DNA from: a virus
Strand: one strand, 5' to 3'
Virus record (IMG/VR): IMGVR_UViG_3300025326_000231
Location: 1 to 21,340 of that record
DNA: 21,340 nucleotides
Shown here in pieces: positions 10,837 through 21,340 of the stretch. Both the position numbers and the translations under genes were made by a program. A model generated the notes under the pieces. It saw only the letters and a list, made by a program, of their open reading frames with translations. It was not told where the DNA came from and made no database searches. How positions within the stretch are numbered: position 1 is the stretch's first letter; the number at the start of each line of letters is the position of its first letter.

Positions 10837-11322
10837 CTAGATGCCGCCTGGCCGGCCGATCTGCACCACCAACACGAATCGGCCGGAGAACTCCTGGTCG
10901 TTGCAGGCGATGAGGATATCGGTCTCGCTCGTGGCCTCGTAGCCGATGCCTTCCTGCCCGAGCGTGCCCATGACGTTGAAGCGCCCGGTGCCGGCGTTAC
11001 TGCCCTGCGGCGAGACGGACCCGCCTTGCGCCTTGCCGGTCACCGTTGGGCAGACGGTCATGAAGCGGTTGGTGAGATCGGTGGTCCCCACGGTGATCGC
11101 TGTGGAGGCGCCCATCGCTTCCCAGTACAGCTCGCCACCGTGCACCACATCGCCCGGCGTGAGGCGCACCATCTTGATGAGCGCCCCCGCGGCGAGTGCG
11201 GCGGCCGTGTAGGTGGCGAACTTGCTTGGCCCGCCGAACAGTGCCGAACTCGGCAACCGGGCGGGCGTGCTGTCGAGCAGCGTGATCTCCCGACTCTTGA
11301 CGGTGCTGCTGCCTGATGCCAT
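10837..11322 (-). CDS. Virion structural protein following the capsid gene
   Basis: A 161-residue protein. The stretches ITLLDSTPARLPSS, ALAAGALIKMVRLTPGDVV and GELYWEAMGASTAITVG form a recognisable order (LLDSTP, then AAG..I.M.RLP.G..V..GELY..A.G.STTI.VG) seen in small proteins placed after capsid genes in podovirus-like phages; these are beta-sandwich virion proteins, possibly capsid stabilisers. Residues about 110-161 contain ETDILIACNDQEFSGRFV. The ATG at 11322 immediately follows the homing endonuclease stop, and its AGGAGGG ribosome site lies inside the end of that endonuclease gene. Its exact location in the virion is unknown. Confidence 0.65.
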   Translation of the reverse strand: MASGSSTVKSREITLLDSTPARLPSSALFGGPSKFATYTAAALAAGALIKMVRLTPGDVVHGGELYWEAMGASTAITVGTTDLTNRFMTVCPTVTGKAQGGSVSPQGSNAGTGRFNVMGTLGQEGIGYEATSETDILIACNDQEFSGRFVLVVQIGRPGGI

Positions 11323-11775
11323 CTAACGATCCCTCCTGTGAAGGTAGGCACGTCGCGCGCTAGCGCTCGCGCAGATGCGACAGCGGCGACTGCCGTTGGA
11401 ATTCATGTAGGTATTGGCCTCGTCATAGGGATGCCCGAGGGGACACTGCGTGCGATGCTTTGCGGCCACCTGGGTCGAACGCCACGGCGCCAGCGCTTTT
11501 GCGATCTGCTGCCGGCGACGTGGCGACATGAGCGCGAAGATCGTCATCATGATGCTGCGGGCGTGGATGTTGGAAACGTGCCAGCGATGAAACGGGCTGT
11601 GGTTCTTGTTCTGGTGCTCGTAGCGCGCGATATGACCCCCAAAGATCCGTTGCAATCGCACGAGCGGTTCGAGTTGGACTTGCGACACGACAATTTGTGC
11701 CGCTGCCCCGCGAGATTGGAAACATCCCTCTCCCTCGATAAACCCGGCCGCCCATGCGATATCAATGGAAGTCAT
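11323..11775 (-). CDS. Free-standing LAGLIDADG homing endonuclease with C-terminal zinc finger
   Basis: A 150-residue protein. Residues 8-19 (WAAGFIEGEGCF) are a LAGLIDADG signature with the acidic residue that binds the catalytic metal; only one copy is present, so it would act as a homodimer. The middle (HRWHVSNIHARSIMMTIF, then SPRRRQQIAKAL) fits the domain's second half. Residues 111-135 carry a zinc knuckle C-x3-H...C-x2-C (CPLGH at 111-115; RCRIC at 131-135), an add-on DNA-binding finger known from homing endonucleases. Such enzymes cut alleles lacking the gene and so spread it. It sits 8 bases after the capsid stop with no sign of an intron or intein. A longer ORF to 11958 in this frame is an artefact over the capsid gene. 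Confidence 0.85.
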   Translation of the reverse strand: MTSIDIAWAAGFIEGEGCFQSRGAAAQIVVSQVQLEPLVRLQRIFGGHIARYEHQNKNHSPFHRWHVSNIHARSIMMTIFALMSPRRRQQIAKALAPWRSTQVAAKHRTQCPLGHPYDEANTYMNSNGSRRCRICASASARRAYLHRRDR

Positions 11776-13642: not shown

Positions 13643-13874
13643 TGGTCACCTCGTGGGGTGTGAGCATGTTCCCGGCGGTATCAGCCGCGCGGATGATGTG
13701 GGCCACCATGTCGAGGCGCCCGCAACGCACGGCCGGATCGCCCGCGCGCTCGGCGTAGGCCAGCATCTCCTGGAGCACGTCGGCCCAGCCGCTGGTCTGC
13801 ACGAGCATCCGATAGGCGCTGGCGCGGCGATCCAGGATCTCCTTCAGCTTGGCCTTGGTCTCGTCGGGCGTCAT
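13635..13874 (-). CDS. Small helical protein between portal and scaffold
   Basis: A 79-residue protein (MTPDETKAKLKEILDRRASA...), predicted mostly helical, with DVLQEMLAYAERAGDPAVR in the centre. The ATG at 13874 overlaps the portal stop as ATGA, and its own stop overlaps the scaffold start, so it is firmly part of the head operon. No known domain is recognised. It could be an assembly chaperone or a small head protein. Confidence 0.65.
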   Translation of the reverse strand: MTPDETKAKLKEILDRRASAYRMLVQTSGWADVLQEMLAYAERAGDPAVRCGRLDMVAHIIRAADTAGNMLTPHEVTNA

Positions 13875-15535
13875 GCCGCCGCCTCTTGCGGCTGCTGCTG
13901 CGCCGCGCTCTCACTGAGCGTCTTGAGCATGGGCGCCGCCTTGCCTGCGGCGTCCGCAGCCTGTTGGGCGGCGGCGAGCGCCTGCATGACGGCTTCCTTC
14001 TGCATCCGCTGGGCGCGGACCTGATCGCGCTGCTCCGTGTCCGTGAGCCATTCCGACGGCGCGCCGGAGGTCAGGAACACGTCCCGGATCATGGCGTCGA
14101 GGTCGAGGTTCTCCTTCGTCTTGGCCATGACTTCCGGGTCGGGGAGCAGGGGCGTCAGGAGTTGGATGGACTGCTCCAGCGCCGAGAGCCGCGAGGACTT
14201 CTGGCTCCGCGCCAGGGGCCCCTCGTATTCGATGTCGAGATCCTGCCCCGCCAGTTCCGGTGGCGGCTGGGTAAAGGCGCCACGGCGCAGCATCATGGCG
14301 AAGGTCAGCCCGATGATCTTGTTGAGGAACTCGGACTCCAGCCGCCCGAGCGTGGGCCCGAGGATGCGGCGCATCGTGTCCCAGCGGCGCTCGACCTCGG
14401 TGGCCGTCATGGTCTTGCCGGTCGGCAGCTGCAACTGCTCCCAGAAAAAGATGCGGCGCACCCGCTGCCGACGGTCCTCGTTGAGAATCTGCGCGACGTC
14501 GAACTTGGCGCCGAGGTTCATCGGCTGAATCGCGTTCGGGACTTCGATCACGGTGTACCCGCCCGGCGTCTCGTCGATCTCACCCAACACCCCATCGGCC
14601 AGGATCGTCTTGGGCGGCCGGATCGCCATGGCGCCAGCGTCCAGCACCATCTCATCGGCCCGGTTGAGAGAACGGATATCGGGGAGCGCGAGCATCCCCG
14701 GGCCGCGCCCATAGACCTCGCCGGAGGTTTTCTCCCACCGGGGGACGACGTAGCGAAAGTCCTTGAACCCGCCCTCGTCGATGATCCGCTTGCGGGCCAG
14801 GTCCACATAGCAGGACGCCCACGCCATGTTGGTGGCGGCGTACTTGCTCGGGTCGGCGTCCGTGCGCGGATAGACCGCGTGCAGGATCGTGACCAGCTCG
14901 TCGGGCTTCGTCTCGGCCAGACCTTGCAGCACCTCGCCGAGGTGGCCCGGCCAGAGGATGGCGCAGGCGCGCGCCGTCATCTGCTCCTCACGCATGATCG
15001 TCTCGACCACGCCATCCGGCCCCTCGGCAATGACATAGGCGCCGACCGGATGCGCGCGGAAGAGGAAGCCACCGAAGGGTTCCTCGGGATCGTCCGGCTC
15101 CTTCTCCCCCACGAACATGCACCCGGTCCCGAAGGCCGCGAGATCCAAGTAGACCTCGTTGACCTCGGCGTAGTAGTTCGACTGGCGGTAGCCGAGATAC
15201 AGCCGCTGCTCCGTGTCCTCCAGCCAGTCCATGACGCGCTTGATCTTGTTCACGCGGTCATCGCGCGTCTTGAGATGGAACCACGGCGCGGCTTGGGACG
15301 TCAGCGAGCCGCCCATGTTGGCCGCGAGATTGTGCGCGGACTCGGCCCCCGTGGCATCAAAGAGCCGCGTGGTCTGCCGCTGGCCCGGCGTCACGGCGTT
15401 CTGCTGCCGGTTCAGGATGGACCCGCGATGCGGCACGATGAACTCCGCGCACTCGTCCCAGAGCGGAATGAAGTTCTCGCGCCGGGTCTTGAGCGTGTCG
15501 TACCGCTTGACGATGGCGACGGGATCAGCGGGCAC
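13871..15535 (-). CDS. Head-to-tail connector (podovirus portal protein, T7 gp8-like)
   Basis: A 554-residue protein with the sequence order of the T7-type portal family (Head-tail_con). An N-terminal helix with TLKTRRENFIPLWDECAEFI is followed by a segment of type 'DATGAESAHNLAANMGGSLT', in which virion portals nearly always carry 'A...LA..L...LT', then PWFHL. YGRGPGMLALPDIRSLN and RADEMVLDAGAMAI are the central signature, and PTGKTMTATEVERR precedes the C-terminal crown helices. The last 60 residues are Ala/Gln-rich coil. It forms the dodecameric ring through which TerL pumps DNA and to which the tail attaches. The start is GTG at 15535, sharing one base with the upstream stop (TAGTG). Length is normal for the family. 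Confidence 0.92.
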   Translation of the reverse strand: MPADPVAIVKRYDTLKTRRENFIPLWDECAEFIVPHRGSILNRQQNAVTPGQRQTTRLFDATGAESAHNLAANMGGSLTSQAAPWFHLKTRDDRVNKIKRVMDWLEDTEQRLYLGYRQSNYYAEVNEVYLDLAAFGTGCMFVGEKEPDDPEEPFGGFLFRAHPVGAYVIAEGPDGVVETIMREEQMTARACAILWPGHLGEVLQGLAETKPDELVTILHAVYPRTDADPSKYAATNMAWASCYVDLARKRIIDEGGFKDFRYVVPRWEKTSGEVYGRGPGMLALPDIRSLNRADEMVLDAGAMAIRPPKTILADGVLGEIDETPGGYTVIEVPNAIQPMNLGAKFDVAQILNEDRRQRVRRIFFWEQLQLPTGKTMTATEVERRWDTMRRILGPTLGRLESEFLNKIIGLTFAMMLRRGAFTQPPPELAGQDLDIEYEGPLARSQKSSRLSALEQSIQLLTPLLPDPEVMAKTKENLDLDAMIRDVFLTSGAPSEWLTDTEQRDQVRAQRMQKEAVMQALAAAQQAADAAGKAAPMLKTLSESAAQQQPQEAAA

Positions 15536-20567: not shown

Positions 20568-20816
20568 TTACGCCTGCCCGCCCCGCACGCTCATCGGCAC
20601 CCCGTACTTCTTCGCCATCGTGGTCGCCAGCTCGAACATGCCGACGATGACCTTCTGGCGCTCGGCCGGCGTCAGCTCGGCCTTCTCATCGTGCGCCGTC
20701 CAGTTGAGATCGGCGTCGAAGAGGACGACGACTTCGCAACGGATCGTCGGGGTGAGGAGAGAAGACGTCAGCATGCTGAGAAAGCCAGAGAACCACAGTG
20801 CAAGAGCCCGTATCAT
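20568..20816 (-). CDS. Small exported or membrane-anchored protein
   Basis: An 82-residue protein. Residues 1-28 (MIRALALWFSGFLSMLTSSL) form a signal or membrane anchor without a clear cleavage motif. The soluble part has FDADLNWTAHDEKAELTPAE followed by a helix (RQKVIVGMFELATTMAKKYG). No family is recognised. Its ATG overlaps the stop of the upstream gene by four bases. Confidence 0.5.
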   Translation of the reverse strand: MIRALALWFSGFLSMLTSSLLTPTIRCEVVVLFDADLNWTAHDEKAELTPAERQKVIVGMFELATTMAKKYGVPMSVRGGQA

Positions 20817-21055
20817 TTCCGCTTATCCTTCACGAACCGCTGAAGGGCGAGAATCAGACGACTCGCCTGATTCACAGTCAGATGTGCTGCGCCGTTATTA
20901 TGCTCCAACACGCCGCCCTCGATGAACAACCAACCCCGGGTCATGGGGTCGGCACTCGACTCGCGCACACTGATCTGACTACCGTAAGTATCTCTCATCA
21001 CCGGCCCGTACAATTTGAGACCGCGGGCATTGTCTACCGTCGGGTATCGCTTCAT
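20813..21055 (-). CDS. Small phage protein with SSA and AHLT-x-NQA motifs
   Basis: An 80-residue protein (MKRYPTVDNARGLKLYGPVM...). The order 'YGSQISVRESSA', then 'GWLFIEGG', then 'AHLTVNQASRLILALQRFV' matches a type of small protein common in phages (a strand pair followed by a helix with '...L...QA..L..AL..F'), whose function is not established. AGGGAGGG lies seven bases before the ATG at 21055. A longer ORF to 21157 would translate the pentanucleotide array and is rejected. Confidence 0.65.
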   Translation of the reverse strand: MKRYPTVDNARGLKLYGPVMRDTYGSQISVRESSADPMTRGWLFIEGGVLEHNNGAAHLTVNQASRLILALQRFVKDKRK

Positions 21056-21214
21056 GGCGCCACCCTCCCTGACAAATGCCCTGCCTCGCCTCGCCTCGCC
21101 TTGCCCTGCCTCGCCTTGCCCAGCCAAGCCTCGCCAGGCCCCGCCGTACCTGGCCAAGCCCAGCCGCGCCTCGCCCCGCCGCGCCCCGCCCCGCCTTGCC
21201 TCAGGGCGCCACCC
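21056..21214. repeat. Direct repeats flanking the pentanucleotide array
   Basis: GGCGCCACCC occurs at 21056-21065 and again at 21205-21214, 149 bases apart on the plus strand. On the minus strand both copies continue as (C/A)TGA(G/A)GC, giving a 16-base repeat with two mismatches. One copy spans the end of the upstream gene, the other spans the ribosome-site spacer and start codon of the next gene. Confidence 0.7.
21076..21200. repeat. Pentanucleotide array, 25 units of GGCNN (minus strand)
   Basis: Read on the plus strand, 125 bases divide into 25 five-base units of form NNGCC with only one exception (GTACC at 21146-21150). The commonest units are TCGCC (6), CCGCC (4) and TTGCC (3). The array starts directly behind the stop codon of the upstream gene (21201-21203) and ends 20 bases before the ATG at 21055. 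The repeated element is the GGC, while the two remaining bases vary freely. Confidence 0.9.
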
Positions 21215-21340
21215 GCCCCCAGATCGTCAGGATCACCAACCCCAGCGGCGCCACCCGGAGCGGCAGGCTCGTCAGGCAGAGCCCGGCGCCGATGACGGCC
21301 GCCGCTGACCACGGATCGGCCCAGTGGAGCCCGCTGCCGA
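21201..21340 (-). CDS. C-terminal end of a small membrane protein, cut by window edge
   Basis: An open frame enters from the right edge and codes 45 residues before a TGA at 21203-21201. The sequence (LHWADPWSAAAVIGAGLCLT, then LGLVILTIWGRV) holds two hydrophobic stretches, as in very small membrane proteins of phages. Start and full length lie outside the window. The stop codon directly abuts the pentanucleotide array. Confidence 0.5.
   Translation of the reverse strand, partial: GSGLHWADPWSAAAVIGAGLCLTSLPLRVAPLGLVILTIWGRVAP

Follow-up and report, generated by a model that had tools for sequence, protein, structure and literature searches.

An intergenic gap in the genome of an uncultivated phage is filled from end to end by five-base units, and the question raised by this locus is what such an array is for. 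The window analyzed here is a virus record of 21,340 bp; together with an upstream extension, 23.6 kb of this incomplete phage genome were available. On the minus strand, positions 21200 to 21076 form 25 gap-free 5-nt units, 24 of the type GGCNN and one GGTAC, running from the upstream stop codon to the next ribosome site exactly as the original prediction had described. Read 5' to 3', units 1-25 are GGCAA GGCGG GGCGG GGCGC GGCGG GGCGA GGCGC GGCTG GGCTT GGCCA GGTAC GGCGG GGCCT GGCGA GGCTT GGCTG GGCAA GGCGA GGCAG GGCAA GGCGA GGCGA GGCGA GGCAG GGCAT. As the single non-GGC unit carries GGT, all 25 of 25 units fit a GGY consensus. The units vary around this constant triplet (10 of the 16 possible NN dinucleotides are present, with an entropy of about 3.1 bits), which agrees with the earlier view of a fixed phase with a conserved GGC instead of a decayed simple repeat. 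Lag-5 identity was 0.72 in the array versus 0.27 in the whole window, and the observed run of 25 GGYNN units compares with a longest run of 4, most often 3, in 300 first-order Markov simulations of the window. Tandem Repeats Finder also detected the array (period 5, 24 copies, 72% matches). No second GGYNN array of at least 8 units was found within the window. Another IMG/VR contig, 3300025325_001148 (L129/L134), matches the window at 100% identity across 10,525 bp, every base of the array included, so the assembly error considered beforehand, in the form of a contig-specific slip, is unlikely. The array is real and not a product of chance.

The array is in sense orientation to the gene for the head-tail adaptor (13871-15535, minus strand; phrog_332, E 5.5e-124) and to the tail genes of the window, which also encodes minor tail proteins. 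Its first unit directly abuts the TGA (21203-21201) of a gene for a 384-aa membrane protein, whose 3' end occupies 21201..21340 on the minus strand and which is found whole in L129 at 1245-2399. The 3' end of the array precedes CAGGGAGGGTGGCGCC-ATG of an 80-aa gene (P0001, 20813..21055, minus strand, start at 21055) that belongs to phrog_3849 (E 1.9e-8), a family of unknown function, and an 82-aa gene follows at 20568..20816 on the same strand. Two near-identical copies of a short sequence flank the array on the minus strand, the upstream one (GGGTGGCGCCCTGA, 21201..21216) forming the end of the membrane protein gene with its stop codon and the downstream one (GGGAGGGTGGCGCCATG, 21053..21070) containing the ribosome site and the start of the 80-aa gene. 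The 2.26 kb added upstream by L129/L134 encode an HNH-like protein (phrog_1271, E 8.6e-7), a methyltransferase-like protein (Methyltransf_23, E 1.1e-5, just under the curated cut-off) and the 384-aa membrane-type protein. The sole match to the 80-aa protein among annotated phages was a weak one in Geobacillus virus E3, and a structure model of this protein alone (pLDDT 46) was too low in confidence for use. A DNA similarity search of the array region against annotated phages gave no match, and Rfam returned none above the gathering threshold.

The original prediction proposed that similar arrays should be sought between the genes of other phages, which proved to be an apt test. Viral contigs were scanned with the array pattern alone, (GGCNN)8GGC, which yielded at least 120 loci; the association of arrays with one protein family was derived from sequence before the paper discussed below was found. 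In 97 loci, the window included and among the matches listed, the NN positions vary greatly, with an entropy of at least 2.6 bits. Among the matches listed, the loci span 39-76% G+C, a ribosome site and ATG follow many arrays, and the adjacent genes repeatedly start with an IxGxxPLLMH-like motif. A profile built from 24 array-adjacent proteins (cut-off E below 1e-5) recovered a member of a single family close to the array at 86 of the 120 listed loci. Within these 86 loci, 257 of 264 arrays lie on the same strand as the family gene and 7 on the opposite strand; 189 are located downstream of it and 75 upstream, at a median distance of 202 bp and a maximum of 2,144 bp. Arrays in the listed loci mostly comprise 9-16 units, with those of 20 or more being a minority. 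Their triplets are GGC (about 94%) or GGT (about 6%), and the NN entropy inside them reaches about 3.9 of 4 bits, which is near-random.

A published counterpart exists in the Viral Interference Programmable Repeat (VIPR) systems described in a 2026 preprint (PMC13142463 / bioRxiv 2026.04.26.720920). These consist of mostly phage-encoded RAMP proteins (Vipr) and vrRNAs of 9-16 GGY/NN units. The Cas7-like Vipr forms oligomers along this RNA, and dsDNA is recognised through the NN dinucleotides in such a way that each unit skips one target base; the reported effects are repression, phage defence and prophage induction (PMC13142463). In phage SUSP1, vrRNAs lie on both sides of genes, and a conserved 3' tail was described for the SUSP1 clade (PMC13142463). 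Our array-linked profile matched SUSP1 at 28477-29061 (E 1e-44), and GGY arrays at 27892-27966 and 29172-29226 flank this match on both sides, in agreement with that report (PMC13142463). The family also matched PDB entry 36pp, 'SUSP1 Vipr protein' (E 1.7e-35). An AlphaFold model of the L146 member (mean pLDDT 86) had its best PDB matches by Foldseek in Csm3/Cas7 of type III and VII complexes (TM about 0.5). By profile and by model, the array-linked proteins of other phages are thus identified as Vipr with a predicted RAMP fold. In PHROGs the family corresponds to phrog_4652 of unknown function, and neither Pfam nor PADLOC offered a useful model for it.

We consider it probable, at roughly 80%, that the window array is a vrRNA-type array of a VIPR system, a kind already published in 2026, which itself rests on one preprint and one PDB entry. 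This assignment draws on the GGY/NN consensus (PMC13142463), the linkage of such arrays to Vipr in other phages and the locus of a distant relative (the record of L137/L146, adaptor protein 41% identical), in which a 34-unit array with 29 GGC lies directly upstream of vipr at 10876-11478. The listed arrays also agree with the published ones in their predominant length of 9-16 units and their near-random NN. With the published arrays, the window array shares hypervariable NN positions, a place in intergenic phage DNA and the strand of its neighbours. It differs in having 25 unbroken units versus the published 9-16, in the absence of a detectable vipr from the available 23.6 kb and of a visible structured tail, and in that exact scans gave no target; all four points count against the assignment, as do the low-complexity 3' units, which could mean decay. 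The earlier suggestion that the array could, as RNA, bind a protein in register was the right class of idea, since the Cas7-like RAMP oligomerises on RNA of this type (PMC13142463). Class 1 CRISPR-Cas systems, with Cas7/Csm3 RAMPs and crRNA, likewise use a programmable RNA bound in register, and the array-linked family shares their RAMP fold. Here, however, there are no CRISPR repeats, spacers or cas operon, and the information would lie in a dinucleotide every 5 nt instead of contiguous spacers. The trp RNA-binding attenuation protein (TRAP) binds (G/U)AG repeats with 2-3 nt spacers; the protein forms a ring, and the spacers are uninformative. TRAP sites resemble the array in that a fixed triplet recurs about every 5 nt in RNA and is bound in register by repeated subunits. 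The triplet is a different one, and a TRAP-like ring was set aside because of the RAMP nature of the array-linked protein.

By analogy with the published system, we infer that the window array is transcribed, bound and used for targeting in its own phage. It would be transcribed from the minus strand together with the neighbouring genes, and its conserved GGY triplets would be gripped by Cas7-like Vipr subunits, giving a filament on the RNA. The NN dinucleotides would then pair with a dsDNA target, one target base being skipped per unit, and target binding would repress a gene in a competing phage or satellite. The guide would consist of the 5' part, about 16 units. The last nine units (AA GA AG AA GA GA GA AG AT at their NN positions; 21076..21120, minus strand) are a low-complexity stretch, purine-purine in 8 of 9, and are possibly not guide, also in view of the 3'-end bias of other arrays toward AA, AG and GA. 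The 25 units may comprise two or more vrRNAs, or else a guide of 16 units with a purine end. No structured 3' tail was identified at the window array, where only about 20 nt separate the array from the next start codon, the whole segment folds with a z of -2.35 and there is no repeated tail for comparison.

Under the 1-nt-skip rule (PMC13142463), the decoded protospacer is AAn GGn GGn GCn GGn GAn GCn TGn TTn CAn ACn GGn CTn GAn TTn TGn AAn GAn AGn AAn GAn GAn GAn AGn AT. Exact scans of viral and genome contigs with 8-10 units (16-20 specified bases) returned only chance seeds: two of 9 units (L130, L148) and 17 of eight units, none extending beyond the seed more than chance. Exact matching of this kind misses mismatched targets, and the source community is perhaps outside the scanned sequences. 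An apparent skip-1 excess was rejected as an artefact, those loci having been fetched by that very pattern.

Several features of other arrays were observed. Arrays of the Vipr-linked loci among L009-L128 are skewed to AA/AG/GA in their three final units, with a purine-purine fraction of 0.47-0.60 versus about 0.31 inside the arrays, which suggests that these ends serve as a 3' anchor and not as guide. At L014, L032, L041, L086, L091, L100, L120 and L122, back-to-back sub-arrays of about 9-14 units have either a shift of phase by one base (GGCA|GGC) or a short spacer between them and are perhaps the 'staggered' arrays of the VIPR preprint. Directly 3' of arrays at L022, L085, L011, L095 and L010, tRNA-like minihelices were seen, in which a T arm with a TTCGA loop is stacked on an acceptor-like stem (for example at the array 3' ends of L085, 1494-1530, 1627-1666 and 1772-1808). 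Their stem sequences differ between phages; sequence beside arrays contained 9 of them in 33 kb, and 1.93 Mb of other sequence contained 6. Possible roles are as tails of the vrRNA or as sites at which tRNA enzymes process it; pseudoknot tails and hammerheads are mentioned in the preprint's main text, tRNA-like minihelices are not (PMC13142463).

Profile searches found no vipr in the 23.6 kb of the window phage, that is, in 2.26 kb on one side of the array and 21 kb on the other. In this the window differs from the Vipr-bearing listed loci, where vipr lies within 2.2 kb of the array. Given this result, Vipr would be encoded on unsequenced phage DNA or supplied in trans. Among the 56 listed loci with at least 2.2 kb on both array sides, 13 also had no vipr in a two-round profile search (L015, L019, L029, L033, L043, L054, L070, L083, L093, L118, L119, L125 and L128); these could be orphan arrays or belong to divergent Vipr types that went unrecognised.

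Both the missing vipr and the existence of such vipr-less loci favour an orphan or decaying vrRNA array, one whose vipr was lost or which was transferred alone, and which is now unused or used only via Vipr from a second phage sharing the cell. The low-complexity 3' units point the same way, as they could signal decay, the purine-rich 3' half then being a product of slippage. Decay would not, however, preserve 25 of 25 intact GGY triplets for long, and divergent Vipr types might evade the profile, so that we regard an orphan as possible though rather doubtful. It is a sub-case that overlaps the vrRNA assignment.

The relatives of the window phage bear on the mobility of the segment. In L133 (80-90% nucleotide identity), the membrane protein gene and the 82-aa gene, which marks the far side of the indel, are kept. 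The missing segment of about 435 bp spans the array together with the 80-aa gene and extends into the start of the gene that follows. Of the GGGTGGCGCC(C/A)TGA that borders the array on either side in the window, L133 contains a single copy, GGGAGGGTGGCGCCATGA. The comparison shows that the array and the 80-aa gene come and go together and that a duplicated stop/start region flanks the array. Together they constitute a presence/absence module of about 435 bp, either gained or lost, as expected of accessory conflict genes. A further contig, 3300025327_000167 (L131/L147), is 99.3% identical to the window over 12.9 kb and then about 86% identical with loss of collinearity, and would be either a mosaic relative or a chimeric assembly. 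The 80-aa gene was also considered as a recurrent array neighbour, and its product is not established as a VIPR accessory because no homologue was found beside other arrays. A further reading, in our estimate unlikely, is a stand-alone vrRNA cassette, in which the guide array and the phrog_3849 gene form the module of about 435 bp, carry no vipr and use the Vipr of a co-resident phage or prophage. If this were true, guides would be mobile, shareable ammunition separate from the effector.

In a cis-acting leader, the array would sit in the mRNA, where in-register binding of a RAMP-like protein would govern translation of the next gene, and no DNA target would be involved. The sense orientation of the array and its end at a ribosome site would suit such a role, and in other phages the arrays that precede vipr frequently reach up to its ribosome site. 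A leader of this kind is nevertheless improbable, as 189 of 264 arrays in the listed loci are downstream of vipr versus 75 upstream, the near-random NN positions are expected of a guide and not of a regulatory site, and DNA targeting set by NN was demonstrated in the preprint (PMC13142463). A slippage-born pentanucleotide microsatellite, a phase-variable spacer or part of a coding repeat can be dismissed despite the period of 5 and an open frame across the array (ORF 21052-21312, minus strand), which exists because GGC units give few stops: the units differ yet GGY is invariant, the close relative L133 has no ordinary coding sequence here but lacks the whole segment with both flanking genes kept, and in the listed loci the motif is found next to a single protein family in phages whose G+C ranges from 39 to 76%. 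Likewise, no support was found for the ideas proposed at the outset, namely slipped structures rich in G, a spacer for recombination, or tuning of the 80-aa gene by a phase-variable length, since elsewhere NN is near-random, arrays accompany vipr across that range of G+C and the 80-aa gene is no recurrent neighbour.

With a vrRNA-type array as the preferred reading, the five-base periodicity of a very recently described guide-RNA system would make it recognisable in sequence alone, here in an uncultivated phage whose annotation is uninformative. The presence or absence of the segment in L133 and the vipr-less array loci raise the question of whether guide arrays can spread separately from the effector. 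The loci collected in this analysis provide a sample for this guide-effector question and for the types of 3' tail, the tRNA-like ones included.
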